Origin: a virus
Reading direction: 5' to 3' (one strand)
DNA length: 31,146 bases
Virus record (IMG/VR): IMGVR_UViG_3300020221_000073
Location: 1-31,146 of that record
How positions within the stretch are numbered: position 1 is the first letter of the stretch; each line of letters opens with the position of its first letter. This document shows positions 851 through 29,631 of this stretch, piece after piece. Made by a program: the position numbers and the translations under genes. Below the pieces are notes generated by a model. That model was not told where the DNA came from, did not search any database, and was given only the letters and a program-made list of their open reading frames with translations.

Positions 851-1285
851 ATGAAATTCGCCAAAGGAAAATTCTTGATGAAGAATCCTGCCAAGTACGT
901 GGGAACAAAAGCTCCAACGTATAGGAGTGGTTGGGAACACTCTTTCATGCGACTGTGTGATGAGCACCCAAATGTCTACCAGTGGGCAAGCGAATCCATA
1001 AAGATACCTTATCGCCATCCTTTGACTGGCAAATACACCATCTATGTGCCAGACTTCTTTCTAGTATATGTTGATAAAAACGGCAACAAGCACGCAGAGT
1101 TGGTAGAAGTCAAACCAATGAATCAAGCCACCATGGAACGGGCTGGTAAGAGCACTGGAAGACAGACACAAGTTGTGATTAATCGAGCCAAATGGGAGGC
1201 TGCCTCTGCGTATGCGAAGCAAAATAGGATAACCTTTCGGGTTCTGAGCGAGGAACAATTATTCCATCAAGGGAAACGCAAGTAA
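851..1285 (+). CDS. gp4: Head completion nuclease gp4
   Basis: The 144-residue length fits T4 gp4 (about 150). The protein has a PD-(D/E)xK nuclease core: PD at residues 67-68 followed by E86-V87-K88 in the strand ELVEVKP. The conserved opening KFLMKNPAKYVG and the segment APTYRSGWEHSFMRLCD are typical of the family. In T4, gp4 is a head-completion protein with nuclease activity that acts on packaged DNA before tail joining. The ATG follows the upstream stop directly. Its own TAA stop (1283-1285) forms the first half of a TAAATA element that precedes the small terminase gene. The start is fixed by the conserved N-terminus. The assignment is confident; the precise biochemical activity here is inferred from the family. 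Confidence 0.9.
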   Translation: MKFAKGKFLMKNPAKYVGTKAPTYRSGWEHSFMRLCDEHPNVYQWASESIKIPYRHPLTGKYTIYVPDFFLVYVDKNGNKHAELVEVKPMNQATMERAGKSTGRQTQVVINRAKWEAASAYAKQNRITFRVLSEEQLFHQGKRK

Positions 1286-1288
1286 ATA
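1283..1288 (+). promoter_or_regulatory. T4-type late promoter core (TAAATA) before gp16
   Basis: TAAATA in the context AGTAAATATC begins 12 nt before the gp16 ATG. In T4 the late sigma gp55 recognises TATAAATA and transcription starts about six bases downstream, which here would be at or next to the A of the ATG. The TAA is also the gp4 stop codon. Support comes from the repeated spacing seen at other genes in this window. Confidence 0.6.
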
Positions 1289-1294
1289 TCTTAA

Positions 1295-1816
1295 ATGACA
1301 CGCAAGCTGGAAGATATACTCAATTTACCAAATGTAAAAGAAGCATTCGCAAAGGTGGATGCCAAGGAAAAATCACGCGAAGACAAGGAAAGACACACTA
1401 TTCCTAAAAATGTTGATCCCCAGACAGCAAAGGCCTTGGAAAAAACCTATCAAGAATTCGATAAAATTGCGGCAGCATTACCGCAGGTCAAGGGTTTGGG
1501 CGAATTAAGCGATCTCGAGCTGGATAAGCTGGCCATGGAGGCCGAAGAGAGCTATAAAAATCTCATGGATCTGGGCATGAACGTGGACAGCAGATATTCA
1601 GGACGTATTTTTGAAGTGGCAAGTTCAATGTTGCGCAATGCTATAGATGCAAAATCACAAAAAATCGATAAAAAATTACACATGGTGGAATTACAGCTGA
1701 AAAAACTCAAAATTGACAAAAGCGGCTCGGACGACATCAGCGAACCGATTGAAAGTGAGGGCATGATAATAAGCGACCGCAATGAGTTGATGAAGAAACT
1801 GCTGAAGAAAGACTAA
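1295..1816 (+). CDS. gp16: Terminase small subunit gp16
   Basis: The 173-residue protein matches the marine T4-like small terminase pattern. It has a charged N-terminus (LEDILNLPNVKEAF), a flexible middle, and a helical core with NLMDLGMNVDSRYSGRIFEV leading into a coiled coil at about residues 100-140 (AKSQKIDKKLHMVELQLKKL). T4 gp16 (164 residues) has a similar central coiled coil that drives ring formation; it binds concatemeric DNA and regulates the gp17 motor. Two features of this locus agree: gp17 lies about 2 kb downstream, and gp4 is immediately upstream. In T4, genes 16 and 17 are adjacent, whereas here three other genes intervene. The ATG is not preceded by a Shine-Dalgarno sequence but sits just after a TAAATA element, so its mRNA may be leaderless. 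Confidence 0.82.
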   Translation: MTRKLEDILNLPNVKEAFAKVDAKEKSREDKERHTIPKNVDPQTAKALEKTYQEFDKIAAALPQVKGLGELSDLELDKLAMEAEESYKNLMDLGMNVDSRYSGRIFEVASSMLRNAIDAKSQKIDKKLHMVELQLKKLKIDKSGSDDISEPIESEGMIISDRNELMKKLLKKD

Positions 1817-1819
1817 ATA
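1814..1819 (+). promoter_or_regulatory. Late promoter core (CTAAATACAG)
   Basis: TAAATA starts 13 nt before the ATG at 1827 and is followed by CAG, as at 5446 and 29626. Its TAA is the gp16 stop codon, so the promoter and stop codon are merged. No ribosome binding site lies between it and the ATG. Confidence 0.62.
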
Positions 1820-1826
1820 CAGCATT

Positions 1827-2453
1827 ATGACAAACTTTAAACAATATCTAGCAGAATCGACGAAGGAATATCACTACAAAATTAAAATAGCTGGTGATAT
1901 AAGCGAAGATTTTGGCTCTAAATTGGAAACAGCACTGCGAAAATATGAAGTAAAGTCTCTGTCAAAAGGTAAAAAAACCCCAATACAGGAAGTGCCATTG
2001 GATTTTTCCCATATCAAAAATCAAGCAGTAACAATTTTTGAATTGACCACCCTGTACCCGGCATCAGTATTTGAAATGAGAGCATTGATAGCTGACAGCA
2101 TGCGTTTACATGACAACCAAATCGTAATTAGAAAACCGGGAGAGCCAACAGAGGAATACCAGGAAGAAATAAAGGCCAGGGCGGAAAAAAAATCTGAATA
2201 TAAGTCTATGTTACATGATATAGAATACAAAGATGCTCCAAAAGTCAAAGCGGATGAGGTGTATGGGGATCGGGCCAATCAAAGTTTATTAAAAGAATTA
2301 CTCAAAGCCAGAAAACAAACGGAATTTGCTGAAAAACCTAAAGTGGAACAGGAAGTGATGAAAAATGAAGTGGATAAAAAAAATTCTGGATCTCCGATCA
2401 AAGCAGCTCATAAAGGGCCAGTAAAAGGCAACCCAGATCCAGCAGGAAAATAA
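1827..2453 (+). CDS. Putative internal head protein with capsid-targeting-like N-terminus
   Basis: The 208-residue protein opens with MTNFKQYLAES. This closely parallels the ten-residue capsid targeting sequence of T4 internal proteins (pattern M-K-T-Y-Q-E-F-I-A-E), which is removed by the gp21 prohead protease after a hydrophobic-x-Glu site; here LAE at residues 8-10 fits. The following domain (about 15-110) alternates strands and helices and includes EVPLDFSHIKNQAVTIFELT and a TEEYQEE segment. The C-terminal half is highly charged and looks unstructured, ending in a basic Gly/Pro/Lys-rich tail. Similar proteins are, to my recollection, conserved near the terminase genes of marine T4-like phages without known function. 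Delivery into the head is inferred from the N-terminus and from the late-type promoter directly upstream. Confidence 0.6.
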   Translation: MTNFKQYLAESTKEYHYKIKIAGDISEDFGSKLETALRKYEVKSLSKGKKTPIQEVPLDFSHIKNQAVTIFELTTLYPASVFEMRALIADSMRLHDNQIVIRKPGEPTEEYQEEIKARAEKKSEYKSMLHDIEYKDAPKVKADEVYGDRANQSLLKELLKARKQTEFAEKPKVEQEVMKNEVDKKNSGSPIKAAHKGPVKGNPDPAGK

Positions 2454-2457
2454 TTTT

Positions 2458-3525
2458 ATGGACATGATCGATATCTTATCTAGACTTAGACAGATTCAGG
2501 AAAGCAATCCATCAATTGATGTCAAGGACGCCATAAGCAATGTGGAGAAAGCAAACGGACCAGTAGCAGAGAAAACACAGAGCCCGTATGCGATCGGAAT
2601 GGCGCAGGCCATGAAATCCACAGGAGACACTCCACCACTAAAAAAATCCACCATTGAGAAAGCGCATGACATCGCGAAGTCGATAGAGAAAAATGAAGGC
2701 GAGATCGACGAGACCATGACGCGACAGCACTTTCAGCTGTTCGCCGACACAATTAAACAGATCGAGGACCCAATCAAGCGCAAAGAGACAGCAGAGATGA
2801 TAGCGGGCGTGATGGCCAAGAGCAATCCGAGGTTCGACATGCAAAGATTCATGTCAGCGGCAGGAGTGGCGATGGCCGAGGCGGACGCTGCTAATGTTGA
2901 CCTAAAGAAAAAATTGAGCGACTTGAAAGACAAATACAATGCACAAATGGCCAACGCCTATGCAGGTGATCCTTCAGAAACGGAAGAAGAGATCGAAAAG
3001 ATAGAAAAGCAGTTGGGCATAACACATGAGGAGAAGAAAATGAAGAAAGATAAGATGAACGAGTCAATCATGATAGCCACTGATTCACCAGAAGAAGCCA
3101 GCATGATGATGCAGTTGCTGAAATTGGCAGGAGTAAGACCAGTTGGACAAGACATGATCAATCAGCCTGAAGCTCCGAAAGAAGTGCCAACAGATGCGCA
3201 GGCCGACGAGGCGTTCGCAAACACGCCAAAAGAAAAATACAGCGATGTGAAAGCAGTGGTGCCAAGCGGCACTGATCTGCACAGAGCAAAAGGCGCCTAC
3301 ATCAAGGCGGCCGGTGGAGACAATCCCATGTCCATCAAGATGGGAGAATCTGAGATCTCAGAAGAGGAACTGTCAAACAGCCTTAGAGCGCAGTACGAGA
3401 GTTTCAAGAAGACCTATCAGGAAGCGGCCAACTCGAAACCAGATTTCTTGGACGTGGACAAGGATGGCAACAAGTCCGAGCCCATGACAAAAGCGCTGAA
3501 GGACAAAGAGCAGGCGAAGAAGTAG
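2458..3525 (+). CDS. Conserved virion-type protein with EF-hand-like C-terminal loop
   Basis: This is a 355-residue, mostly helical, highly charged protein. Four parts can be seen: an N-terminal helix (MIDILSRLRQIQES); a compact domain at about residues 86-140 (MTRQHFQLFADTIKQIED to FDMQRFMSAAGV), recognisable in marine T4-like phages; a short hydrophobic motif MMMQLLKLAGVRPVG at 216-230; and a C-terminal loop DVDKDGNKSEP at 332-342 that resembles a dockerin or EF-hand calcium loop (D-x-D-x-D-G). The LLKLAGV motif recurs as LTELAGI in the 847-residue protein downstream. The ATG at 2458 is preceded by AAAATA, a one-mismatch version of the late element at the usual spacing. An alternative ATG lies six bases later. 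Function is unknown; a head-interior or scaffold-associated role is plausible from context. Confidence 0.62.
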   Translation: MDMIDILSRLRQIQESNPSIDVKDAISNVEKANGPVAEKTQSPYAIGMAQAMKSTGDTPPLKKSTIEKAHDIAKSIEKNEGEIDETMTRQHFQLFADTIKQIEDPIKRKETAEMIAGVMAKSNPRFDMQRFMSAAGVAMAEADAANVDLKKKLSDLKDKYNAQMANAYAGDPSETEEEIEKIEKQLGITHEEKKMKKDKMNESIMIATDSPEEASMMMQLLKLAGVRPVGQDMINQPEAPKEVPTDAQADEAFANTPKEKYSDVKAVVPSGTDLHRAKGAYIKAAGGDNPMSIKMGESEISEEELSNSLRAQYESFKKTYQEAANSKPDFLDVDKDGNKSEPMTKALKDKEQAKK

Positions 3526-3569
3526 CCCGGGGCCAATAACACCAGGTTTAATTCCATTATAGACCCCAC

Positions 3570-3575
3570 TAAATA
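3570..3575 (+). promoter_or_regulatory. Late promoter core (ACTAAATA)
   Basis: TAAATA begins 11 nt before the ATG at 3581 in the short gap after the 355-residue gene. Only a T-rich run separates it from the start codon, and there is no Shine-Dalgarno sequence. A start about six bases downstream of the element would fall on the ATG. Confidence 0.62.
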
Positions 3576-3580
3576 TTTTT

Positions 3581-3844
3581 ATGGAATTCTTTGGACGATA
3601 TTCTGACGGGCTGAGATACACCTCCATCAAGGTGGTTTATAAGATGCCGGACTATCAAAACATACTGCAGGAGTTCTGGTGGCAGACCCTGGACGTGCCG
3701 CCCAGATACCCTAGGATGAAGCAGTTCGTGGACTACTGGAACGACTACATCGAAGCAGTGATACACAGCCTGGAAGTGGGTCATATGGACCGCTTTGGTG
3801 CCACTTCATATACCAACGCCACAGATTGGTTCAAACTTAAATAA
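3581..3844 (+). CDS. Usg-like protein
   Basis: This 87-residue protein resembles the Usg family, a small alphaproteobacterial protein first noted upstream of a tryptophan biosynthesis gene. The family pattern as I recall it runs YRMPDHP..LQ.F.WQ..D..P.FP.L..F..FW...L.G.LHSV.V. Here I see VVYKMPDYQNILQEFWWQTL, then DVPPRYPRMKQFVDYW, then IHSLEVGHMDRFG. The match runs over most of the length with residues in the same order. The family's biochemical role is not established. The gene lies between a virion-type gene and gp17 and has its own late-type promoter, so the phage probably uses it in assembly or packaging. The match to Usg is by recalled pattern and should be tested by profile search. Confidence 0.68.
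   Translation: MEFFGRYSDGLRYTSIKVVYKMPDYQNILQEFWWQTLDVPPRYPRMKQFVDYWNDYIEAVIHSLEVGHMDRFGATSYTNATDWFKLK
3838..3843 (+). promoter_or_regulatory. Late promoter core before gp17
   Basis: TAAATA in TTAAATAATAG starts 12 nt before the gp17 ATG and overlaps the stop codon of the Usg-like gene (TAA at 3842-3844). Spacing matches the other late elements, and no ribosome binding site is visible. Confidence 0.58.
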
Positions 3845-3849
3845 TAGCC

Positions 3850-5445
3850 ATGGCATACATATCGTTAGATAGTGACCAAATAAAAAAGGCACACAAAAAA
3901 CACAAGTACACAGCTGATCAAGTGATAAGACTGGAAAAGTGCATGGATCTCAGAAGTGGACCGCTTTTCTTCATGCGGGAATTCATGCGAATACAGCACC
4001 CCACAAGAGGAGAATTGAAATTTGATCCCTATCCGTTCCAGGAGAGATTGGTAGAAGCTTATAACAACCACAGGTTCAGCATAGCCATGCTGCCAAGACA
4101 GACCGGAAAGACCACCTGCGCTTCGGGCTATCTGTTATGGTATGCTATGTTCAAACCTGATTCACAAATACTAATAGCCGCTCACAAGTATCAAGGTGCA
4201 TCGGACATCATGAGCAGGGTACGCTATGCCTACGAGCTATTGCCATCATGGATAAAGGCGGGAGTAACACAATACAATAGAAACTCCATAGAGTTTGACA
4301 ACGGCTCCAAGATAATGGCCACCACCACAACAGAAAACACCGGCAGAGGTATGTCCTTGTCTCTTATCTATTGCGACGAGTTCGCTTTCGTGCAACCGCC
4401 AGAAAAGGCCAAGGAGTTTTGGACATCATTATCTCCTACATTGTCCACAGGTGGTAAGTGCCTTATAACTTCAACCCCAAACTCCGATGAAGATCAATTT
4501 GCATTGATCTGGAAAGAGGCCTGCAAGAGATTTGATGACTACGGCGTTGACAAGGTCGTGGGCACCAATGGTTTTTACGCAATGAAGGCCCACTGGAGCG
4601 AGCATCCTGACAGAGACGAGAAATGGGCTGAGACGGAAAGAAGCAGAATCGGAGAGGAGAGATTCAGAAGAGAACACGAGTGCGAGTTCTTGATCTTTGA
4701 CGAAACATTAATCTCCAGTATTAGATTAGCAGAGCTGGAAGGACGAGATCCCCTGATCAATATGGGTCAGGTGCGTTGGTGGAAGACGCCAACGCCGGGC
4801 AACACCTACATGGTGGCGTTGGATCCCAGCCTGGGCACCGGTGGAGATTTCGCTGCGATTCAGGTATTCGAGCTGCCCACGTTCGAGCAGGTGGCGGAAT
4901 GGCATCATAACACCACGCCGGCCAATCAACAGGTAAGAATATTACAGGCAATCACCAAGCACATCTATGACACCATCATTGAAAAAAGCCCCACCACGAC
5001 ACCCAGCATTTTCTACAGCATGGAAAATAACACGTTGGGAGAAGCAGCACTCTTAAGAGTGATGGACATTGGTGAGGAGAACATACATGGACAGTTCATC
5101 AGCGAACCTATCAGAAAAGGGCATCGAAGAAAGTTCAGAAGAGGTTTTAACACTACCGCTAAACACAAGATAGCGGCCTGCGCCAAGTTCAAGGAATTGG
5201 TAGAATTAAATAAGATGAAACTCAACAGCAAGCCACTGATATCCGAATTAAAAGACTTCGTGGCCACGGGCGTGTCCTACAAAGGCAAGCCAGGCCAGCA
5301 TGATGACTTGGTAAGTGCATGCTTGCTGATGACCCGCATGATGCAGGTATTGGCCACATTCGACCCTAAAATATTTGAAAGATGGACCGACAGAACCACA
5401 GAATGGACTGCGCCGATGCCCATATTTGCCAACCTAGGTTCATAA
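3850..5445 (+). CDS. gp17: Terminase large subunit gp17
   Basis: The 531-residue protein has all the parts of the T4 packaging motor. The N-terminal ATPase has an adenine-binding Q at about 64 (YPFQERL), a Walker A LPRQTGKTT at 81-89 (K87, T88), a Walker B SLIYCDEF at 171-178 (D176 and catalytic E177), and a coupling motif TSTPN at 207-211. The C-terminal RNase H-like nuclease has D325 (VALDPSLGTGGDFA), E392 (YSMENNTLGE) and the HDD of QHDDLVSA at 484-486. It pumps DNA into the prohead and cuts the concatemer at headful. It is shorter than T4 gp17 (610 residues) but complete in motifs. Its stop codon directly precedes the late promoter of the next gene. Confidence 0.96.
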   Translation: MAYISLDSDQIKKAHKKHKYTADQVIRLEKCMDLRSGPLFFMREFMRIQHPTRGELKFDPYPFQERLVEAYNNHRFSIAMLPRQTGKTTCASGYLLWYAMFKPDSQILIAAHKYQGASDIMSRVRYAYELLPSWIKAGVTQYNRNSIEFDNGSKIMATTTTENTGRGMSLSLIYCDEFAFVQPPEKAKEFWTSLSPTLSTGGKCLITSTPNSDEDQFALIWKEACKRFDDYGVDKVVGTNGFYAMKAHWSEHPDRDEKWAETERSRIGEERFRREHECEFLIFDETLISSIRLAELEGRDPLINMGQVRWWKTPTPGNTYMVALDPSLGTGGDFAAIQVFELPTFEQVAEWHHNTTPANQQVRILQAITKHIYDTIIEKSPTTTPSIFYSMENNTLGEAALLRVMDIGEENIHGQFISEPIRKGHRRKFRRGFNTTAKHKIAACAKFKELVELNKMKLNSKPLISELKDFVATGVSYKGKPGQHDDLVSACLLMTRMMQVLATFDPKIFERWTDRTTEWTAPMPIFANLGS

Positions 5446-5451
5446 TAAATA
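5446..5451 (+). promoter_or_regulatory. Late promoter core (AATAAATACAG)
   Basis: TAAATA begins 10 nt before the ATG at 5456 and immediately after the gp17 stop codon. It is followed by CAG, as at 1814 and 29626. The leader would be essentially absent. Confidence 0.62.
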
Positions 5452-5455
5452 CAGT

Positions 5456-7999
5456 ATGATCAAGCCCAAAACATCACAGGACTTATTCAACAAAATCCGC
5501 AGCAAGTTCTCTAATATAAAACTAGGGGACAGCGAGGGCAACGTCACAGCTGATCCTAAATCAGCTGTATTTTTCGACTTTGAATTCAGTGAAAATTCTG
5601 ATAATTTTGGTAGAGTGAGCATCAGTTTGGCCGATGGTGAAAATATGAAAGTTTTTTACAATCGAGGATTGGTTGAAAAGATAGACGACGAAGCCAAAGC
5701 GAATTGGTACAGTTTTTTAAAAGAACTCAAAGATTTCGCAGTTCAACACCAGGTGACTTTTGACGTGCGAGATATCACAAAAAGCGGCCTTACACAACAA
5801 GATTTTAAGAATCTCGCAGATGTGAATCAAACGGTAAATATAAGTGATAATATGTCAGAAGAACTAAGCAGATTAACAGAACTAGCTGGAATTCCGGTTG
5901 CAGAAGGTCTCACAGGAACCAAAAAGTCTTCATACGAAAATACAGATAAAACTAGATTGATCATAAGACACTCACAAGCAGTTGACGAAAATGTTCCAGG
6001 CTCAAGAAGCAGACAGATTAACAGCCTATATGTAGAAAATGAGCAGGGAGAAAGATTCAAGTATCCAATGAAACATCTGGCAGGTGCAAGGGCAATGGCC
6101 AGACATGTAGCTAATGGAGGTGTACCTCACGATGATTTTGGCAAACATATAATAAAGATGAGCGAACAGATAGCACAACTTAATAGCTTTGCCCGATATG
6201 CCTCTCACAAAGATCAGTTGAATAATTCAGTGGGTGACATCATAGAAAACTGTAAACTTAAATTAGAAAACATGAGAAGTTATGTAAAAAATTTAAGCAA
6301 ACAAAGTCACTACATGAAAGCCAAAGAAAGTTTCCAACCCACCACAATAGCTGAGTTAGATGATGCTACCAGAAACAGTCTAAGAGAAAAATTTACGTTG
6401 AGGCATCTTGATAATAAAATAGAATCAGCTCTACCATTGATCCATTCAATCATGAAAGAGTATGATGACCGAGATGCTGAGATGTCCACTCCAGTGGATC
6501 AATCTGCGATGGTGCAGTCATTCCTTGCCAATCCAGAAAAAAAATTAGTGCTAAGGGCGGATCCCGCAGCCGATAAGATGCTGTCATTGACTAAATTTAC
6601 AAATAAGAACAGCATGTTGAGCTCCATACTGTCTGACATAGCTTCGAGAATGTTGACCAGGAACGATGAAGAAGACAGGATAGCCAACTTCGCCAGCCAG
6701 GTGGCCGACGACATGGGCAACGAGGGCTCGCTGTTCTTCAAGCCCGATGCCAACTACACGAAAAATAAAAAAATCGCCATACAACTGGCCAAGAGATATA
6801 TCGATGACTACAAGAAGATGCAGCAAGATCCAATCTACAGGGACGAAGTGAGACAGGACCCCAGCAAGTTCATGCCAAAAAAAGACAGGCAGGGCAAGGC
6901 CAAGGAAGATTTGGCACAGCCTTTCGAGAACTGGACCAACAGAATAGAGGCAAAGGTCAATGAGGGCATCAGCTCACTGCCGGACGAGGACCATGCAGGC
7001 AAGGACTTCATAAAAGTGAAGGATCTAATGAGCAAACATTTCCCAGTGGGCACCGAAGCCGTAAATGCAGTATCAACACTGCAGGGTTTGGGTTTTGATG
7101 ATGATGATCTATTTGATCAGCTGGGTGACCTAGCAGACAAGGAAGGTCCAGACGCCTGCGCCAGGGAGACAGTGAGAGATTATGTGTTGAAAATGCTGGC
7201 AATGCCGGCGGCAAAAAATTACTACAGCCCGGCGGAGCACAGCGCGCTGACCAATGCGGTCACGGCCAACGAGAAAGATTTCATGAAGGCAAAAGAACCG
7301 GCCATGGCGGAAGTATCCGACACAGTGAAAGAGAGAGATGAGCCAGCAGACGTGGGCATGAGCCCGCAGTTTCGAGACTACGCGGAAGAACCTGACGAAA
7401 TAGAAGATGTGCAGCAGATATTGAATAAACATCAAAATGCTTATAAGCAATTTAAATCAGGAGACGATCTATACAAGCACAAAGAATTGTATTCAGATTT
7501 GTTGGATTATTATGTAAATTCTGGAGACATGCCCTATGGCACTTCAAACGCCAAAGATGGAGATCCTATAAATTGGATAACAACCAGATTGGCCGATTTG
7601 GGATTGATAGAATCGGTGAAGAATGAATACAAGGGCCAGATTGATGCTGAATATAAATTTCGTGATTGGTTGAAAAAGACACACAACAAAGAAGTAACTG
7701 ACTTAAAACCACAAGAATACGCAACTATTTCAAAACAGTATAGTGACGAAAAAGCCAAGCAAGGTGCCAAGACCGAGGGCAATGAGTTCGCCCTGGCAGT
7801 GCAGAAGGCCAAGGCAGCAGGCATGAAACCCGGCGACAAGTTCAAGGTTGGCGACAAGGAATACTCATTGAAGGACGCCATAGAATTGGCCGGCATGCAA
7901 TTGGAAGATTTTGATTTTGCCGCAGAAAACGTTGCCAGCGCCAACGAGTCGGTAAAAGAAGACGAATTGGCAATCATTAAAAAGTTATCCGGTATATAA
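5456..7999 (+). CDS. Large conserved phage protein, probably virion-associated
   Basis: This is an 847-residue protein without a recognised enzymatic motif. Residues 1-130 look like an alpha/beta domain. A short motif MSEELSRLTELAGIPVAEG lies at 133-151; its LTELAGI echoes LLKLAGV in the 355-residue upstream gene. Residues 160-350 include helical segments such as KLENMRSYVKNLSKQSHYMK. The middle (about 350-620) is helical and charged. The C-terminal part repeats DE-rich linkers and ends in ELAIIKKLSGI. In my recollection comparable large proteins accompany the head genes of marine T4-like phages, annotated as hypothetical or structural. The late-type promoter immediately upstream agrees with expression at assembly. 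Base composition rises in GC between about 6.6 and 7.4 kb relative to its flanks, suggesting a modular history. Confidence 0.6.
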   Translation: MIKPKTSQDLFNKIRSKFSNIKLGDSEGNVTADPKSAVFFDFEFSENSDNFGRVSISLADGENMKVFYNRGLVEKIDDEAKANWYSFLKELKDFAVQHQVTFDVRDITKSGLTQQDFKNLADVNQTVNISDNMSEELSRLTELAGIPVAEGLTGTKKSSYENTDKTRLIIRHSQAVDENVPGSRSRQINSLYVENEQGERFKYPMKHLAGARAMARHVANGGVPHDDFGKHIIKMSEQIAQLNSFARYASHKDQLNNSVGDIIENCKLKLENMRSYVKNLSKQSHYMKAKESFQPTTIAELDDATRNSLREKFTLRHLDNKIESALPLIHSIMKEYDDRDAEMSTPVDQSAMVQSFLANPEKKLVLRADPAADKMLSLTKFTNKNSMLSSILSDIASRMLTRNDEEDRIANFASQVADDMGNEGSLFFKPDANYTKNKKIAIQLAKRYIDDYKKMQQDPIYRDEVRQDPSKFMPKKDRQGKAKEDLAQPFENWTNRIEAKVNEGISSLPDEDHAGKDFIKVKDLMSKHFPVGTEAVNAVSTLQGLGFDDDDLFDQLGDLADKEGPDACARETVRDYVLKMLAMPAAKNYYSPAEHSALTNAVTANEKDFMKAKEPAMAEVSDTVKERDEPADVGMSPQFRDYAEEPDEIEDVQQILNKHQNAYKQFKSGDDLYKHKELYSDLLDYYVNSGDMPYGTSNAKDGDPINWITTRLADLGLIESVKNEYKGQIDAEYKFRDWLKKTHNKEVTDLKPQEYATISKQYSDEKAKQGAKTEGNEFALAVQKAKAAGMKPGDKFKVGDKEYSLKDAIELAGMQLEDFDFAAENVASANESVKEDELAIIKKLSGI

Positions 8000-8014: not shown

Positions 8015-8043
8015 TAGACAACAGATAAATAACTGTGTATATT
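8015..8043 (+). promoter_or_regulatory. Candidate sigma70-type promoter for gp32, with embedded TAAATA
   Basis: The 110-base gap before gp32 contains TAGACA (8015-8020), a 17-base spacer and TATATT (8038-8043), giving an expected start near 8050 and a leader of about 60 bases. A TAAATA element (8026-8031) lies inside the spacer, so early and late recognition could overlap. This is one of the few genes here with a real untranslated leader. Confidence 0.45.
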
Positions 8044-12761: not shown

Positions 12762-13210
12762 GCTGGTCCATAGCCAATATCAATTGTCATAGAAAACCCA
12801 TATGCCATGTTTACTCCGGTGCTCTAGTATCAAGAAACATCTACGACAAGTTGTATGAGCAATGGAATAACATAGGGCATGAACATTGGAGAAAATTCAC
12901 CGATGAGATGAAAGTCGAAGTATACTTTCACGATGATTTCACCAGCATGTTGACTCCAAAAAAGATCAACGGATATATCGGCTATTGGTTTTTCCAACAA
13001 CGCACAGATAGGAGCAAGGGGGGAGAAATAGAGCTTGCAAATGGAACTGATAAAAAAATATTAAACTACTGCAGCAACACAATTTTAATAATAGAAACTG
13101 ACAAAACTTTCAACGTGCTTGCTAGAAAGCACCAGTTGCCGCAAAGGCCCTTTTGCGAAATTTATTTTGACGATATCACCAACAAAAAGATAAAAAAGTT
13201 TTTCTATTAA
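12758..13210 (+). CDS. Unknown protein, possible double-stranded beta-helix fold
   Basis: The 150-residue protein starts at GTG 12758, whose bases overlap the previous stop; no better start is visible and no ribosome binding site is seen. The central part is strand-rich, with YIGYWFFQQRTDRSKGGEIEL, then NTILIIETDKTFNVLARKHQ, then QRPFCEIYFDD. This spacing of strands, a Gly-Gly turn and a late Arg-Pro-Phe recalls 2-oxoglutarate/Fe(II) oxygenases or cupins. The expected His-x-Asp pair is not clear, so an inactive or divergent version is possible. Its 3' end overlaps the converging minus-strand gene by four bases. I would not assign a function. Confidence 0.55.
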   Translation: MSWSIANINCHRKPICHVYSGALVSRNIYDKLYEQWNNIGHEHWRKFTDEMKVEVYFHDDFTSMLTPKKINGYIGYWFFQQRTDRSKGGEIELANGTDKKILNYCSNTILIIETDKTFNVLARKHQLPQRPFCEIYFDDITNKKIKKFFY

Positions 13211-13902
13211 TCTTTGAATATTTTATTGGACTCTACTAATATTTTATTACCTGGCAGGTATTTTTTTTGCCCATAACCGTGCCCAAACCAACACTTTGGA
13301 CCACCATTTTTTTTATTAAACCTATAATCCATTTTTTCAACAACAACTTGACTTTTTAAGGTTGCGTACACTAAAATCTTGTTATCGTCGTCTGGATATT
13401 CTTTAAATTTTAAGAAAGGCGCAATGGTTTTGGCAGAATACTCATTTAACATGAACACCCCTGCATTAAATCTTTCATTCCTAAGTACTTTTGGCTCAAA
13501 AACTTTTAGTATGCTATTTTTTTCGCTTTCCTCATGCCAATCGATTGATCTCTTTAAAGCTCTTTTATCTACACAAGGCTTGAAAGTATTATTTCTAGGA
13601 TACATTTCAAAAATATTGGGTGCAGTTGGCCAACAAATCACATCGGTGTCTAAATATAAAATTTGATCGTATTCTTCCCACCAATCATTATTTAAAAATA
13701 AATCAAATCGTTCGAATGTTGGATGTACGTGATTTATTCTTGGCGTTGAAATTAAAATATAATCAACTTTACATTTGTCTGCATAAATTTTGGCAGACTT
13801 TTTTGAATATTGTAAAAGTTCTTGATTTACTTTTATATTTACAAAATCAGGATTGGAGAACGTCTTAGTCTCCATAAAGAATTGTACCACACAATTTTTC
13901 AT
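13207..13902 (-). CDS. GT8-like glycosyltransferase
   Basis: The 231-residue protein has GT8 hallmarks: DxD as D85-T86-D87 in ILYLDTDVICW, the acceptor loop ERFNAGVFMLNEYS (about 142-155), and a C-terminal HGYGQKK segment near residues 210-216, equivalent to the metal-binding His of the family. It is cytoplasmic and has no membrane helix. It is the last gene of a three-gene minus-strand block. Its ATG overlaps the stop of the preceding minus-strand gene by one base, so the two are coupled. The coding region is visibly more AT-rich than the flanking plus-strand genes, suggesting separate acquisition. Donor and acceptor sugars are not predictable. Confidence 0.8.
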   Translation of the reverse strand: MKNCVVQFFMETKTFSNPDFVNIKVNQELLQYSKKSAKIYADKCKVDYILISTPRINHVHPTFERFDLFLNNDWWEEYDQILYLDTDVICWPTAPNIFEMYPRNNTFKPCVDKRALKRSIDWHEESEKNSILKVFEPKVLRNERFNAGVFMLNEYSAKTIAPFLKFKEYPDDDNKILVYATLKSQVVVEKMDYRFNKKNGGPKCWFGHGYGQKKYLPGNKILVESNKIFKD

Positions 13903-14714
13903 TATAAAATATTTAAGTTTTTTAATATGCTGACTGCCATACCATTTTCAAATTCCTCGGGCGTAAACTGTTGATAAGCCAAGGAATACAGCCATTTAGA
14001 TGGATCAGTGTAAAAAGGATCTTCTATTTCCGACAGTCCCGGCGATGACATGATCCAAGCAAAACTCTTTGTATCACTGAATATCGGAACCCCTTCCAAC
14101 GCTGCCTCAACTGCGCTGATACTGCAACTGGTCACGCAAGCCCAAGCATTGCGCAGATCATGCTCCAAAGATACTGCAGCCACACTAGGACCAGACGTTC
14201 CGGCCTTCCGGGGTTTTTCTCTTATCTTAATGGGTCGATCGGTATATTTTTTTATCTCATTGACAGTGTTGTTGGTCCAATTGGTTTTTTTAAGATATTT
14301 GTGTATACCTAGACTGCTGGGGCAGATAAGAATATATTCTCCTTGATTTTTATTTCTTGTTTTTATTGGTAAGTTAAATTTATCAAACCTATCCGAAGGA
14401 CAATCTCTTATAAATTTAGCATGTATCTGATTCTTACAAATTCTCCAGTAGTGATTATCATTCTTTAAGTTTGAATTGTTAAATCTCCCAAAATAAGGTG
14501 TGTCTGTGTACCAATACTCAGATCGCTGTTGCTCTAATTGATGCACAAGATTAATATTGTTATTAATAAATCCCCAAAACATAGCAGGAGATTTAGCATC
14601 TGTGTCCAGATTATTTTTTATTTCTGTTTTCTCGGGCCAGGTTCTTTGTATTCCTTTAAACACTTCCCAGCATTTACTCTTGGGACTATCAGATGGTGCG
14701 TAAATTGTTAGCAT
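13902..14714 (-). CDS. GT-B-like transferase of the four-member paralogue family (copy A)
   Basis: The 270-residue protein belongs to a family with three other members in this window. Shared landmarks in order are: YWYTDTPYFGRF (67-78), a nucleotide-side strand YILICPSSLGIHKY (127-140), RPIKIREKP (160-168), CSISAVEAALEGVPIFSD (197-214) and the closing AYQQFTPEEFENG (246-258). The Ser/Glu plus Gly-Val-Pro segment is the donor-binding region in capsule-type GT-B and CDP-glycerol transferase-like proteins. Its start lies within the 3' end of the SGNH gene (26-base overlap). The role is probably transfer to a growing glycan; the donor is unknown. RxxP replaces the RPHP motif present in copies C and D. 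Confidence 0.68.
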   Translation of the reverse strand: MLTIYAPSDSPKSKCWEVFKGIQRTWPEKTEIKNNLDTDAKSPAMFWGFINNNINLVHQLEQQRSEYWYTDTPYFGRFNNSNLKNDNHYWRICKNQIHAKFIRDCPSDRFDKFNLPIKTRNKNQGEYILICPSSLGIHKYLKKTNWTNNTVNEIKKYTDRPIKIREKPRKAGTSGPSVAAVSLEHDLRNAWACVTSCSISAVEAALEGVPIFSDTKSFAWIMSSPGLSEIEDPFYTDPSKWLYSLAYQQFTPEEFENGMAVSILKNLNIL

Positions 14715-15388: not shown

Positions 15389-16471
15389 ATGATTGTAAAA
15401 AATATATCAGCTATACAATACTTCATAGAACGGTTTGATATACTAGATGCACCATATCAATACACCGTTGATTATCATATTGATGCTCCTCGAAAAACTT
15501 TTATCACCAATCCCACGTTTATGGCTGAGTTCCATGACTGTACAACACACAGTTTACCCTTGTTGATAACAAATGAAAATCATCTCATTACCTCACACAT
15601 ATGGCCCCTATTGCATAATACAAAATACAAACCAAAGAAGACACATGGGCTATGGAGTGCATGGGGAGAGAACATAGATATATCTCTATCTGCTCCCGCC
15701 AAAAAATTTGAGGAAGAGTACAAATACGTGTGGTTGCCCATCGATGAGCTCAGCGCCAACAACGCCTGGCACATCTGGATCGACGTGATATCAAAGTTTA
15801 GATTGATGGAAAAAAAATTCAGCCACAAATATACGGATTTTATCTATGTGTTGAGCAACTCCAGTGAATATTTCGATCGTGTGGCCGGAGAATTATTTCC
15901 TGAACTTAGATATTACGTGATGCCCAAAAACACAACATGGAAATTTGCGCATCTTTTGGTGCCATCCATGAGCAATCATGAGGATGGCGTGACTGTGCCA
16001 GAAATGCCAAAGTGGCTCCGCCATAAATTTGGCCAGAAAATAGAGCCTACAAGAAAAATTTTTATCAGCAGGGAGGATGCCCCCGCGAGGAAATTGATTA
16101 ATGCCGAGGAAGTGTTCATGGCTCTGCAAGGTTGGGAAACCGTTACTCTATCTGGAATGATAACCCAAAAACAGATAGAACTTTTTTCAGGAGCTAGTCA
16201 TGTAATATCTACACACGGAGCTGGATTAGCCAATCTATTATGGTGCCAGGCAGGAACAAAAATCATAGAAATAAGTCAAAAGGAATTATTAGATAAAAAA
16301 GTCTATCCTGTTTTAAGCCATCATTTGGGATTATCCCACCATGTATTATTGGGTGAAAAAGTGACAATAGCAGGAGATAAACCCAAAGGAGTAAAAAGAA
16401 AAAAAGATTTCAATGACATCACCGTAAACACGTCCGCTCTATTTGAATTGATTAATCAGGTGCAAAAATAG
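15389..16471 (+). CDS. GT61-like glycosyltransferase (DUF563 type)
   Basis: The 360-residue protein resembles family 61 transferases. The N-terminal half carries the acceptor region with ELSANNAWHIWIDV (about 116-129). The C-terminal half has RKIFISREDAPARKL (about 222-236), a regulatory-like Asn/Glu segment INAEEVFMAL, and the signature ASHVISTHGAGLANLLWC (about 269-286), followed by AGTKIIEIS. The HGAG(L/M) motif with its catalytic-region His is diagnostic. Known members act in capsule, LPS and plant glycan synthesis. There is no signal peptide, so the reaction is cytoplasmic. A strong promoter with almost no leader lies just upstream, and it begins the plus-strand run of four genes to asnB. 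Confidence 0.82.
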   Translation: MIVKNISAIQYFIERFDILDAPYQYTVDYHIDAPRKTFITNPTFMAEFHDCTTHSLPLLITNENHLITSHIWPLLHNTKYKPKKTHGLWSAWGENIDISLSAPAKKFEEEYKYVWLPIDELSANNAWHIWIDVISKFRLMEKKFSHKYTDFIYVLSNSSEYFDRVAGELFPELRYYVMPKNTTWKFAHLLVPSMSNHEDGVTVPEMPKWLRHKFGQKIEPTRKIFISREDAPARKLINAEEVFMALQGWETVTLSGMITQKQIELFSGASHVISTHGAGLANLLWCQAGTKIIEISQKELLDKKVYPVLSHHLGLSHHVLLGEKVTIAGDKPKGVKRKKDFNDITVNTSALFELINQVQK

Positions 16472-18276: not shown

Positions 18277-19992
18277 ATGTGTGGCATATATGGCATAACC
18301 AAACGAGATAGAGACTTTATAGAAAAGTATATAAAAATCTGCGAACATCGAGGACCAGATGGACAGGATATTTGGAATGATGATTCTGTCACTCTAGGAC
18401 ATAATCTTTTAAGCATAACCGATCAGCCACAAGTGTCGCATCAGCCATGGCACACTGAGAGAGGCAACATATTAATATATAATGGAGAGATTTTTAATTA
18501 TTTTGATTTGATAAAAAAATACACAGCTTTTAAACCCCGTACCACATGTGATACAGAATTGTTAGCATGGGGATTGGATCACCATGGTGAAAAATTTGTT
18601 GAAGAGATTGACAGCATGCATGCCTTTGCCTATTACAACACCCAGTCAAAGCAACTGATATTGAGTAGAGATCATGCTGGCATCAAACCTCTATACTATG
18701 CTGAAACCGCGGAGGGATTAATATTTGGTTCAGAAATAAAAGGCATGCTGGATCAGGTGCCCAACTCCAGGAAGATAGATCAGTTGGCGATCAGCTGCAT
18801 GAGCCTCACCGGCATCAATGCCACCAGGAACACATTCTTCTCCAACATAAAACAACTGATGCCGGGAGAAACAATCACATATGACTGTGCAAGAAAAAGA
18901 ATAAAATCATCAGAAAGAATTTACATCACTCCAAGATCTAATCGATCCTTTGATCCCGCGGAGTTCAGAGATCGTGTGAGAAAGACTGTGCAGATGTCAA
19001 GCATAGGACGAAGACAGATGGGGGTATTCCTCAGCGGTGGGTTGGATAGCAGCGTGGTAGCATATGAGATGATGAAGATACATGGAGCTGTGAACACATT
19101 CACTAATAAAATGCAGCCCAATGTCGTGACCGATGAAGATTACAACAGTGATGCCGCCTGTGCAAAAATTTTAGCTGTGCAAGAAAAATTCAATCACACC
19201 GAAGTTATTATCACACCCAACGATGTCATCGCGGCATGGAAAGACAGCATCTACTACATGGAACAACCTGTCTACAACCCCAGCATGAGCATGTATTATC
19301 ATACCAATCGCAAATTGTCGGAGGCCGGCACCGTCATAACCATGGCGGGAGACATGGGCGATGAGATACTGGGAGGATATCCCAAGTATTGGAAAATGAA
19401 AGATGAAAAGTTCCGTTCATGGGGAGACATAATAGACAAATGGTTACAAAGAATAAAAAGACCACTAGTGGTGGGAGTGCCGACTCTGCCGGCCGCGGTG
19501 TTGAGAGAAGAGTTAATAAAGTTGTATCCTGACACCTTATGGAATCCTGTGGATCCCGTAGCATCTTATATGGCCCTTGATTGTGTGGCACAAGCACCAA
19601 ATGAATTCTTCTCTAGGAACGACAAATACGGCATGGCGTTTGGCATGGAGGGGAGATTTCCTTTGACCACAAAAATGTTCATGCAATATTGCCTGGACAT
19701 ACCAACCAGTCACAAGATAGGAAAAAATAAACACGAGACAAAGTTATTGACCAAAATTGCCTACAAAGGATTACTGCCAGATGCAATAATTACGAAACAA
19801 AAGACAGGTTGGACTGTGCCAATCGGACAGTGGCTGGCCATGGGCATTGATAACAATTTAAAAAAGTTTTATACTAGCTGTGTCGGAGAGAAATCAAGAC
19901 TGGATAGGATAACGGTAAGCCAAAAGGCAAGCAAAGCTCTGGTTCCAGCCTGGGTCATGCAAGATTGGATCAAAAAGTATGAGATGTTGTGA
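18277..19992 (+). CDS. asnB: AsnB-type glutamine-dependent amidotransferase (asparagine synthase family)
   Basis: The 571-residue two-domain enzyme begins MCGIYGI, so Cys2 becomes the N-terminal nucleophile of the class II glutaminase domain. HRGPDG (24-29) and YNGEIFNY (68-75) are glutaminase motifs. The synthetase domain has the pyrophosphate loop FLSGGLDSSVV (251-261) and the later MAGDMGDEILGGYPKYW. Both halves appear intact. The canonical reaction makes asparagine from aspartate, glutamine and ATP. In polysaccharide loci, relatives instead amidate sugar carboxylates or add amino groups to sugars. Its place between glycosyltransferase and methyltransferase genes favours the second role, but ordinary asparagine supply to an infected cell cannot be excluded. 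It ends one base before a convergent gene. Confidence 0.88.
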   Translation: MCGIYGITKRDRDFIEKYIKICEHRGPDGQDIWNDDSVTLGHNLLSITDQPQVSHQPWHTERGNILIYNGEIFNYFDLIKKYTAFKPRTTCDTELLAWGLDHHGEKFVEEIDSMHAFAYYNTQSKQLILSRDHAGIKPLYYAETAEGLIFGSEIKGMLDQVPNSRKIDQLAISCMSLTGINATRNTFFSNIKQLMPGETITYDCARKRIKSSERIYITPRSNRSFDPAEFRDRVRKTVQMSSIGRRQMGVFLSGGLDSSVVAYEMMKIHGAVNTFTNKMQPNVVTDEDYNSDAACAKILAVQEKFNHTEVIITPNDVIAAWKDSIYYMEQPVYNPSMSMYYHTNRKLSEAGTVITMAGDMGDEILGGYPKYWKMKDEKFRSWGDIIDKWLQRIKRPLVVGVPTLPAAVLREELIKLYPDTLWNPVDPVASYMALDCVAQAPNEFFSRNDKYGMAFGMEGRFPLTTKMFMQYCLDIPTSHKIGKNKHETKLLTKIAYKGLLPDAIITKQKTGWTVPIGQWLAMGIDNNLKKFYTSCVGEKSRLDRITVSQKASKALVPAWVMQDWIKKYEML

Positions 19993-20592
19993 TCAATGTA
20001 CTTGATAATGGCATAGATCAATTTCTCTCGTTTTAAATTTATAGTAATTGGCTTTGTACCTCGTATCAAAGTATGTTCGCTTTTGAACGAATTTAAGATT
20101 TTTAAATTTTTCTATGCCGGGTTTGATATGGGGATGGTTTCCATCATCGAATACGAAATTCTTTATGCCGAGATGCAGGGACAGCTCTATATCCCTCTGC
20201 ACTATCTCTGGCCAATGTCCCCCGTCGATGAATGCCAAGTCATACCCTGATATCGGCAACGACCTGCTGCCTAGCATGACCTCCATAGCCACTTTCTGAC
20301 TGTCACCCCACACTATTTCATGCCTGCCGGGAAATTTTTCTTTGAGGATTTCCGCACCCTTCCTGGAGCTGTCTATTTCTATTATCTCGATGCTGGTGAT
20401 CTTTACTGATGGAAACATAGTCATCAACAAGGCACTGCTCCAACCGGTATTGAATCCAAATTCCAATACGTTGGTAAATGGAAATGAATTGTAAAAATGT
20501 TTCCATGCATTGACCACATGCTCGGTTGGGCATAGATGTCCTGTGTGTCCAGGAGGCATATAGGTTAAATTGTAAATAATTTTTTGTGACAT
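19993..20592 (-). CDS. SAM-dependent methyltransferase-like protein
   Basis: I take the start at 20592 (MSQKIIYNLTYMPPGHTG), 16 codons inside the longest frame, because the longer version would run into the divergent promoter region and adds a hydrophobic, unconserved-looking extension. That gives 199 residues. Motif I is NVLEFGFNTGWSSALLM, with the usual G-x-G-x-G modified to GFNTG. ITSIEIIE holds the acidic end of strand 2, and YDLAFIDGGHWPEIV is the IDGGH motif typical of Methyltransf_24-like proteins. A second methyltransferase of the same broad type begins the island at 10925. It converges with asnB and diverges from the GT-A gene at 20621. Substrate unknown. Confidence 0.72.
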   Translation of the reverse strand: MSQKIIYNLTYMPPGHTGHLCPTEHVVNAWKHFYNSFPFTNVLEFGFNTGWSSALLMTMFPSVKITSIEIIEIDSSRKGAEILKEKFPGRHEIVWGDSQKVAMEVMLGSRSLPISGYDLAFIDGGHWPEIVQRDIELSLHLGIKNFVFDDGNHPHIKPGIEKFKNLKFVQKRTYFDTRYKANYYKFKTREIDLCHYQVH

Positions 20593-28426: not shown

Positions 28427-28989
28427 TGCCAGACGTAGACATAGATTTTGCCAATAGAGAACACGCACTCAAATTGTTTAAACATGTGCCAGCATCCATA
28501 ATCAAAGACGAGGAGATAGAAAAACACAAGACAGGCGTGTACTTTCATGAAGTGCCTGTGGACCCAATGTTGGGCTCGTGCAGTTTTGATTTTAAAAGAG
28601 CAGAAGATCGTGGTTATTTTAAAATAGATCTGCTAAACGTTAATCTCTATGAAGGCGTGAAAACAGAACAGGAATTAGTTGAGTTGATGCTGGAAGAACC
28701 AGACTGGGACATGTTAAAAGATAAAACAATTGTGGATCAATTGTTCCATATCAATGGCCATTTCGATATAGTATATAAATTGGAACCAAAAAATATTGAA
28801 CAGCTGGCGGCGGTGTTGGCAATAATCAGACCTGCCAAGCGGCATCTCATGCACAAATACTGGACGGAAATATTAAAAGAAGTGTGGGTGAAACCTTCAG
28901 ACGAAAGCTACTATTTTAAAAAGTCTCATGCTGTTGCCTATGCTCAGGCCATTGTAGTTCAGATGAATTTGATAAGGAAAAATAAATAG
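28426..28989 (+). CDS. Miniature DNA polymerase III alpha (DnaE)-like protein
   Basis: The 187-residue protein keeps short blocks of bacterial DnaE in order. MPDVDIDFAN (residues 1-10, D3, D5, D7) matches the PD(F/I)DxDF block that carries two catalytic aspartates. GYFKIDLLNVNLYEGV (63-78) matches the KxDxLG block with the third (D68). DQLFHINGHFDIVYKLEP (104-121) and AAVLAIIRPAKRHLMH (128-143) match the ...Q.E......L.P and AL.RPGP regions, and FKKSHAVAYAQA (164-175) matches the KSHA.AY block. Full DnaE has over 1,000 residues, so most of the fingers, the PHP domain and clamp-binding parts are absent. I recall similar proteins in cyanophages. Polymerase activity is not established. Confidence 0.72.
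   Translation: MPDVDIDFANREHALKLFKHVPASIIKDEEIEKHKTGVYFHEVPVDPMLGSCSFDFKRAEDRGYFKIDLLNVNLYEGVKTEQELVELMLEEPDWDMLKDKTIVDQLFHINGHFDIVYKLEPKNIEQLAAVLAIIRPAKRHLMHKYWTEILKEVWVKPSDESYYFKKSHAVAYAQAIVVQMNLIRKNK
28983..28988 (+). promoter_or_regulatory. Late promoter core before the two-helix membrane gene
   Basis: TAAATA in AATAAATAGATGA begins 11 nt before the ATG at 28994 and overlaps the TAG stop of the previous gene. The spacing equals that seen at the terminase genes. A second ATG at 28990 is in another frame. Confidence 0.55.
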
Positions 28990-28993
28990 ATGA

Positions 28994-29215
28994 ATGAAAA
29001 GTATACAAAAATTTTTAAAGACACTGCCAGAATGGGCAATATTCATTTACCTATTCTTATCATTGAGCGTGGGACCTCTAGTTATATTCAATCTCAAATG
29101 GCACCAGCTTGGAACGCTTAAATTGGCGGCGGCGGCCTGTGGGCCATTCTTCTTTGTTTTGGGAGCCATGGGAGCCATAGTGGCTTTCCTATTTTATTAT
29201 GAAGATTTAGATTAA
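28994..29215 (+). CDS. Small membrane protein with two helices, holin candidate
   Basis: This is a 73-residue protein. A short basic N-terminus (MKSIQKFLKTLPEW) leads to a first hydrophobic helix (about 15-34, AIFIYLFLSLSVGPLVIF). A polar loop (NLKWHQLG) and a second helix (about 43-67, with a Gly/Ala-rich segment FFFVLGAMGAIVAFLF) follow, then the acidic end YEDLD. Two helices, short length and charged ends fit small class II holins, but no homology is claimed, and T4's own holin is a different, larger protein. A late-type element lies just upstream, consistent with late expression for lysis or as a membrane-bound assembly factor. Confidence 0.6.
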   Translation: MKSIQKFLKTLPEWAIFIYLFLSLSVGPLVIFNLKWHQLGTLKLAAAACGPFFFVLGAMGAIVAFLFYYEDLD

Positions 29216-29625: not shown

Positions 29626-29631
29626 TAAATA
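29626..29631 (+). promoter_or_regulatory. Late promoter core (AATAAATACAG)
   Basis: The element matches the 5446 site over eleven bases. The ATG at 29648 lies 22 nt downstream of its first base, longer than at the other sites, so the predicted leader is about 11 bases. A nearer ATG at 29641 opens only a short frame. Confidence 0.55.

Follow-up and report, generated by a model that had tools for sequence, protein, structure and literature searches.

A TAAATA box beside the start codon predicts leaderless late mRNAs in a clade of uncultured T4-related phages

In a 31,146-nucleotide (nt) stretch of viral DNA (IMG/VR record IMGVR_UViG_3300020221_000073, positions 1 to 31,146; hereafter the window), and in the clade of uncultured phages to which it belongs, the hexamer TAAATA recurs 10-13 nt before the start codons of late genes that lack a Shine-Dalgarno (SD) site. 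These boxes are very probably gp55-type late promoters that have merged with the start codon, with predicted leaders of 0-2 nt. Textbooks describe T4 late transcription as a gene switch whose promoters lie well upstream, followed by a leader that carries the ribosome-binding site. In the clade studied here, which counts at least 591 IMG/VR terminase loci, an entire gene class appears to have its promoter merged with the start codon. If this is true, virion production would need leaderless translation, which would tie host range and timing to initiation on the host ribosome, and start-site and regulatory annotation would need correcting. The reading is testable in cultured phages such as HTVC008M and Mosig.

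The window comes from the genome of an uncultured T4-related phage, and it encodes gp4-, gp32-, UvsX-, UvsY-, helicase-, primase- and DNA-polymerase-like proteins. It matches a 75,462-bp IMG/VR contig (IMGVR_UViG_3300020220_004906, here G003) at 99.997% identity over 31,141 bp, and G003 is therefore taken to be the window virus's own longer sequence. The terminase of the window shares 55% identity with its counterpart in the jumbo phage PA5oct. A terminase search of IMG/VR confirmed 591 relatives, which form a large uncultured clade; the best 80 of these 591 (82-100% identity) served as the clade sample, and together with the window they make up the 81 loci of the spacing scan. Open reading frames (ORFs) were our own calls, each starting at the first ATG within the first quarter of the longest ORF. 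Since whole-record counts of TAAATAN(4-7)ATG were too noisy in AT-rich genomes, ORF-anchored counts were used instead. Four records that are pieces of the window (L001-L004) were left out of all counts, and for the ortholog-by-ortholog tally of boxes the loci L007, L037, L053 and L068 were swapped for their full contigs.

Position of the box and the genes that carry it

The hexamer itself is not over-represented in the window, where 24 copies were found and 27.2 expected. However, seven of the 24 lie 10-13 nt before one of the 41 ORF starts, a placement expected 0.077 times (Poisson p 3e-12), and it is thus the position of TAAATA, not its abundance, that is unusual. The initial annotation, which had proposed late promoters with leaderless messages on the basis of the window, listed six of these boxes, and their spacings proved exact (12, 13, 11, 12, 10 and 11 nt for the boxes at 1283, 1814, 3570, 3838, 5446 and 28983). 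It was also right that the six genes have no SD site: the cores GGAG, GAGG and AGGA are all absent from the usual place.

A genome-wide scan of the spacing had been suggested at the same time, and when run on the relatives it came out strongly in favour of the proposal. TAAATA began 10-13 nt before the start in 261 of 766 distinct upstream sequences from the 81 loci (10 nt, 23; 11 nt, 74; 12 nt, 100; 13 nt, 64); no copy stood at 7-9 nt, and none of the other listed positions exceeded 13. At least one boxed member was present in 47 of 308 protein families in the 81 records, and in 39 of these 47 at least half of the members were boxed. When each family was represented by one member, TAAATA was the top hexamer at 10-13 nt, being found in 40 of 302 families where 1.9 were expected (p 3e-38). 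The runner-up was the SD word AGGAGA, and the other A/T-rich words among the ten top hexamers were shifts overlapping TAAATA. Counted by family, TAAATA occurred 41 times at 10-13 nt versus 26 times at 15-60 nt, and in clade contigs the box stood at 10-13 nt in 17/145, 20/102, 13/86 (G003) and 9/68 ORFs.

Because ORFs start after stops, TAA words accumulate before starts, and a hexamer that contains TAA might be enriched there by chance or by the ORF calling, given that ORFs are defined by an upstream in-frame stop. Yet only a spacing of 12 is in frame, and the out-of-frame spacings 10, 11 and 13 together make up 161 of the 261 boxes; the other A/T-rich hexamers in the top ten overlap TAAATA. 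Moreover, the same pipeline found no box at 10-13 nt in T4 (0/248 ORFs) or in KVP40 (0/210; 140 kb sampled). We regard an artefact of this kind as a negligible possibility. The boxes of T4 lie mostly 30-34 nt before the start, in agreement with the earlier remark that its late leaders are usually longer. In further sampled comparators the counts at 10-13 nt were 0/104 ORFs for S-PM2 and 1/92 for P-SSM4 (100 kb each), 0/46 for Syn9 (70 kb), and 1/56, 0/67 and 0/62 for PA5oct, Atu_ph07 and Phosso (50 kb each).

The boxed class consists of late genes for virion and packaging proteins, not of replication genes, with few exceptions that include an HNH endonuclease and a glycosyltransferase. For the terminase large subunit, TerL, the box was present at 11-13 nt in 70/80 orthologues; at 10-13 nt it preceded 62/64 orthologues of ORF 1295-1816, and it was found in 61/69 orthologues of the virion protein 1827-2453, with an SD site in none of these three families. 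The virion protein 5456-7999 (60/61) and a tail tube-like protein (48/56) were boxed at 10-13 nt as well, and the Usg-like gene 3581-3844 carried the box in 16/19 orthologues, at exactly 11 nt. No box was found at 10-13 nt in clade orthologues of gp32 (0/43), UvsX (0/32), UvsY (0/27) or gp4 (0/64), and gp32 had an SD site in 43/43. Tail sheath genes have TAAATA 36-47 nt upstream in 26/43 members and an SD site in 26/43, while tail tube genes have an SD site in 52/52 and a box at 15-22 nt in 42/52. The occurrence of the same hexamer with a leader where an SD site is present argues that TAAATA is a promoter in both settings. Both of these tail genes keep their SD sites in G003 (59398-63135, minus strand), where TAAATA lies 37 nt upstream of the sheath gene, as in a T4-like leadered late promoter and in contrast to the neighbouring genes predicted to be leaderless.

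Start codons, predicted RNA starts and the sigma factor

All 289 boxed starts were ATG (289/289), among candidate starts that comprised 2307 ATG, 768 GTG and 915 TTG codons. SD cores were found in 3/287 boxed upstream sequences versus 216/804 others, and the clade therefore has two types of start, boxed and SD-led, which exclude each other. Third-codon-position differences dominated from codon 2 onwards in seven of the eight families tested, which indicates that coding begins at the boxed ATG, and an alternative SD-led start was found downstream in only 2/349 members. The exclusive use of ATG and the missing SD sites point to translation by a 5'-AUG route.

According to the accessible part of a paper on T4, its late promoter is a box of 8 bp that precedes the transcription start by roughly one turn of the helix; the box begins at -13, and there is no -35 element (PMC2988020). 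TAAATA would therefore begin at -11, and with a spacing of 11 the A of the ATG would be +1. Boxes 10-13 nt ahead would give leaders of about 0-2 nt, provided that the polymerase shifts by one or two bases. Terminator-like sites precede 30/270 boxed genes versus 2/207 SD genes and 9/565 others, and in 26 of the 30 cases 14-18 nt separate the end of the T-run from the ATG. Nine families have a terminator-like hairpin and T-run upstream of the box, and in five of these the same distance of 14-18 nt is too short for a longer leader. The clearest case is the tail tube-like gene cut off by the left edge of the window, for which G003 gives the order hairpin, T-run, TATAAATA, ATG. The start position in T4 and these terminators strongly suggest that the 5' end of the mRNA lies at the AUG.

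The boxes might also be promoters whose true start is farther upstream, or late transcripts might be long and translated by stop-start coupling, with leaderless messages in a minor role. Most boxed genes closely follow another gene, 89/289 boxed starts reuse the TAA of the box as the upstream stop, and short stop-to-start gaps favour re-initiation. For 52/289 boxed starts, however, there is no stop of a same-strand gene within 60 nt upstream, and in several families a terminator lies directly upstream. Coupling would also leave unexplained why the exact T4 late hexamer stands at a fixed distance, and why it is absent from that place in T4 and other compact relatives. We hold this alternative to be improbable.

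A second alternative, which we consider very unlikely, is that TAAATA is a translation element, an A/U-rich ribosome-binding signal, and no promoter. Although it sits where an SD site would be expected and the two exclude each other, the same hexamer is found 36-47 nt upstream of the SD-led tail sheath genes of the clade, and at 30-34 nt in T4 it is a known promoter. Four different spacings are in use, the clade encodes a gp55-type sigma, and the terminators just upstream require a promoter in between.

The gene for this sigma was detected with phrog_234 in two of the eight clade contigs searched (G005 and G001), and both proteins match phrog_12791 (2.5e-83 for G005). Over 25 kb G005 and G003 share 99.9% identity, and G005 therefore appears to be the same virus or nearly so. 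The clade sigma proteins have 309-326 residues (L168 1024-1953, L169 1024-2004), versus 185 in T4 gp55; the gp55-like part is preceded by ~120 residues that extend the N-terminus. Their protein family suggests that they read the box. The mean best match to TTGACA was 3.15 in the place of a -35 element, versus 2.83 and 2.67 in shifted windows, that is, a slight excess and no clear element.

In the late-promoter explanation, the gp55-like phage sigma and host RNA polymerase would read TAAATA as a -10 element without a -35 element. With the T of TAAATA at -11 in T4 numbering, RNA would start 11 nt downstream, plus or minus two, at the A of the ATG or no more than two bases away from it, and the late mRNA with its leader of 0-2 nt would be translated through recognition of the 5'-terminal AUG rather than by an SD site. 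Many late genes would each own such a promoter, often overlapping the preceding stop codon. Replication genes (gp32, uvsX) would stay outside the leaderless arrangement, and the late tail sheath and tail tube genes would keep leaders or SD sites.

Several observations weigh against this explanation. One family (family 21) has no third-position signature. The gp33 and gp45 profiles gave no match, phrog_254 and PF09116 in 0/12 and phrog_223 in 0/8 clade contigs, which are incomplete; these profiles likewise miss PA5oct and Phosso. The bases before TAAATA are not conserved (T at -2 in 28% and A at -1 in 35% of 40 families), and a spacing of 10 nt would place a T4-like start one base inside the ATG. 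Furthermore, 22 of the 30 terminator cases belong to a single family, the tail tube-like one. Finally, a pyrimidine at -1 was suggestive per sequence (81% versus 45-52%) and not significant per family (29/47 versus 131/272, p 0.11), and we dropped it as proof of the start base.

Features of the window

The boxes of the window and the genes behind them are listed in Table 1. That the TAA of the box is itself the upstream stop codon, as the initial annotation had it for two genes, holds at 1283-1285, where it ends the gp4-like ORF, and also at 1814-1816. The label gp16 fails, as no ORF of the window matched gp16: 3581-3844 matches Usg (PF06233), and 1295-1816 matches a PHROG of unknown function. 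At 3838, 5446 and 28983 the TAA of the box is not the upstream stop, the stops lying at 3842-3844, up to 5445, and at 28987-28989 (TAG). The one-mismatch AAAATA at 2447-2452, which had been put forward as the promoter of gene 2458, was rejected, as TAAATA stood at 10-13 nt in 0/69 orthologues of that gene and an SD-like core in 36/69.

Table 1. TAAATA boxes of the window, with the genes that follow them and two contrasting sites
Feature	Coordinates	Strand	Remarks
TAAATA box	1283..1288	+	12 nt before ATG 1295; TAA doubles as stop codon of ORF 851-1285 (head closure, gp4-like)
Predicted leaderless gene, PHROG 16202, unknown function	1295..1816	+	Codon signature begins right after the ATG
TAAATA box	1814..1819	+	13 nt before ATG 1827; TAA doubles as stop codon of ORF 1295-1816
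Predicted leaderless gene, virion structural protein (phrog_14802)	1827..2453	+	
AAAATA, probably no promoter	2447..2452	+	11 nt before ATG 2458
TAAATA box	3570..3575	+	11 nt before ATG 3581
Predicted leaderless gene, Usg-like protein (PF06233; 75.9 bits, cut-off 27)	3581..3844	+	
TAAATA box	3838..3843	+	12 nt before ATG 3850; last two bases overlap stop codon 3842-3844
Predicted leaderless gene, terminase large subunit TerL (gp17-like)	3850..5445	+	
TAAATA box (ATAAATA)	5446..5451	+	10 nt before ATG 5456; abuts TerL stop codon
Predicted leaderless gene, virion structural protein (phrog_13484)	5456..7999	+	
ATAAATA box, contrasting site	8026..8031	+	84 nt before gp32-like ORF 8110, which is leadered and SD-led (AAGGAGG)
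TAAATA box	13910..13915	-	13 nt before ATG at 13902; not in the initial annotation
Predicted leaderless gene, weak glycosyltransferase family 8 match (25.8 bits, cut-off 24.3)	13207..13902	-	
TAAATA box (ATAAATA)	28983..28988	+	11 nt before ATG 28994; overlaps TAG stop 28987-28989
Predicted leaderless 73-aa ORF, no family match	28994..29215	+	Least certain of the seven

Two further copies of TAAATA are possibly late promoters with very short leaders (~7 and ~11 nt): 20573-20578, 18 nt before ORF 20591, and 29626-29631, 22 nt before ORF 29648. Neither ORF has an SD site. The genes 13207-13902, 15389-16471 and 18277-19992, of which the first gave a weak match to glycosyltransferase family 8 and the others matched glycosyltransferase 61 and a glutamine-dependent asparagine synthase, may form a glycan or surface cassette.

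Host and comparison with known systems

An alphaproteobacterial host is suggested by the Usg-like gene, because the gene has a Pfam match and this family (PF06233) was found only in Caulobacter among 14 control genomes; two scans of genome contigs returned no homologues of the Usg-like protein, which leaves the Pfam match and the control genomes as the basis of this lead. The gene sits between virion genes, just upstream of TerL. It is conceivable that the arrangement is driven by the host, in that any T4-like phage of Alphaproteobacteria would show it where hosts readily translate leaderless mRNA. Such messages are common in Caulobacter, with 375 leaderless mRNAs that are translated as well as others (available part of PMC4117421), and in S. 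meliloti, with 171 leaderless starts, every one AUG (PMC3616915, as far as accessible); the ATG-only boxed starts resemble these known leaderless genes. The Usg gene and the sharing of the trait by the SAR11 phages HTVC008M and Mosig speak in the same direction. On the other hand, Cr30 of Caulobacter (0/244 ORFs) and phiM12 of Sinorhizobium (0/314) have no box at 10-14 nt and are SD-led, and Atu_ph07 and Phosso have none at 10-13 nt. A host-driven origin, which would be compatible with the late-promoter explanation, is thus possible and rather doubtful. The host alone as the cause is not supported: since Cr30 and phiM12 are SD-led although they infect Alphaproteobacteria, the host permits the leaderless arrangement and does not dictate it, and is permissive at best. 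In Cr30 (NC_025422) the word TAAGTA shows enrichment at 25-39 nt upstream of ORFs (9 ORFs, p 2e-8), which makes it a candidate late-promoter word of this phage.

One might go further and propose two translation channels, in which early genes and a few abundant tail proteins are SD-led and most late genes are gp55-driven and leaderless, the latter gaining an advantage once initiation or the ribosomes are altered late in infection. Such a system would have arisen at least twice, in the clade and in pelagimyophages; we regard this scheme as speculative and unlikely.

A precedent for class-wide leaderless phage mRNA exists in the Thermus phage phiYS40, whose middle and late mRNAs are leaderless (PMC3594737). 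As in the clade, a temporal class of phage genes is carried on leaderless mRNAs; unlike the clade, phage and host phylum are different, and the accessible part of that paper makes no tie to a gp55-type sigma or to TAAATA. In Deinococcus-Thermus a -10 element 6-7 bp before the ORF yields a leaderless mRNA, and a second gene class uses a ribosome-binding site (PMC12340547); as described in the part available, these promoters are cellular (TANNNT) and form no phage late class, whereas the clade boxes end 4-7 nt before the ATG. Phage transcripts are described as 'often leaderless' in the accessible text of a paper on AR9 (PMC5312081). No report of leaderless gp55-type late transcription was found in searches of an open-access library, and the gp55-type version is apparently new.

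A similar placement is found in pelagimyophages and the methylophage Melnitz, which have TAAATA 11 nt before the ATG. In HTVC008M the box was present at 10-13 nt in 13/179 ORFs, 11 of them at exactly 11 nt (p 1e-13), and in Mosig in 6/183, all at 11 nt (p 1.5e-5); Melnitz had 3/198, all at 11 nt, with a p of 0.01 that is not significant after correction. SD sites accompany 1/13, 0/6 and 0/3 of their boxed genes, respectively. In HTVC008M (NC_020484, 18916-18943) a gp2-like and a gp4-like gene stand 26 bp apart, and the gap holds two divergent boxes, each 11 nt before its own ATG. These phages differ from the clade in having fewer boxed genes and a near-rigid 11-nt spacing and in belonging to a distant phage family, and in HTVC008M, unlike in the clade contigs, gp33 and gp45 were detected. 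According to the available part of a paper on pelagimyophages, late promoters were not predictable there (PMC7029224), and placement of the box on the start codon may be the reason. The Melnitz paper searched for TATAAAT late promoters, and leaders are not discussed in its accessible part (PMC9004378).

With the T4-type late promoter (TATAAATA, gp55/gp33/gp45) the clade shares the TAAATA core, a gp55-family sigma and the association with virion and packaging genes; a -35 element may likewise be lacking, given that the matches to TTGACA show a slight excess and no clear element. It differs from T4 in that the box stands 10-13 nt from the ATG, whereas in T4 it lies mostly at 30-34 nt with an SD site, and in that gp33 and gp45 were not detected in the clade contigs. 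The outer TA of TATAAATA is not conserved in the clade, so that the boxes do not show the strict 8-bp form; the clade box is therefore best described as a variant that would work like the T4-type promoter rather than as a strict member of its class.

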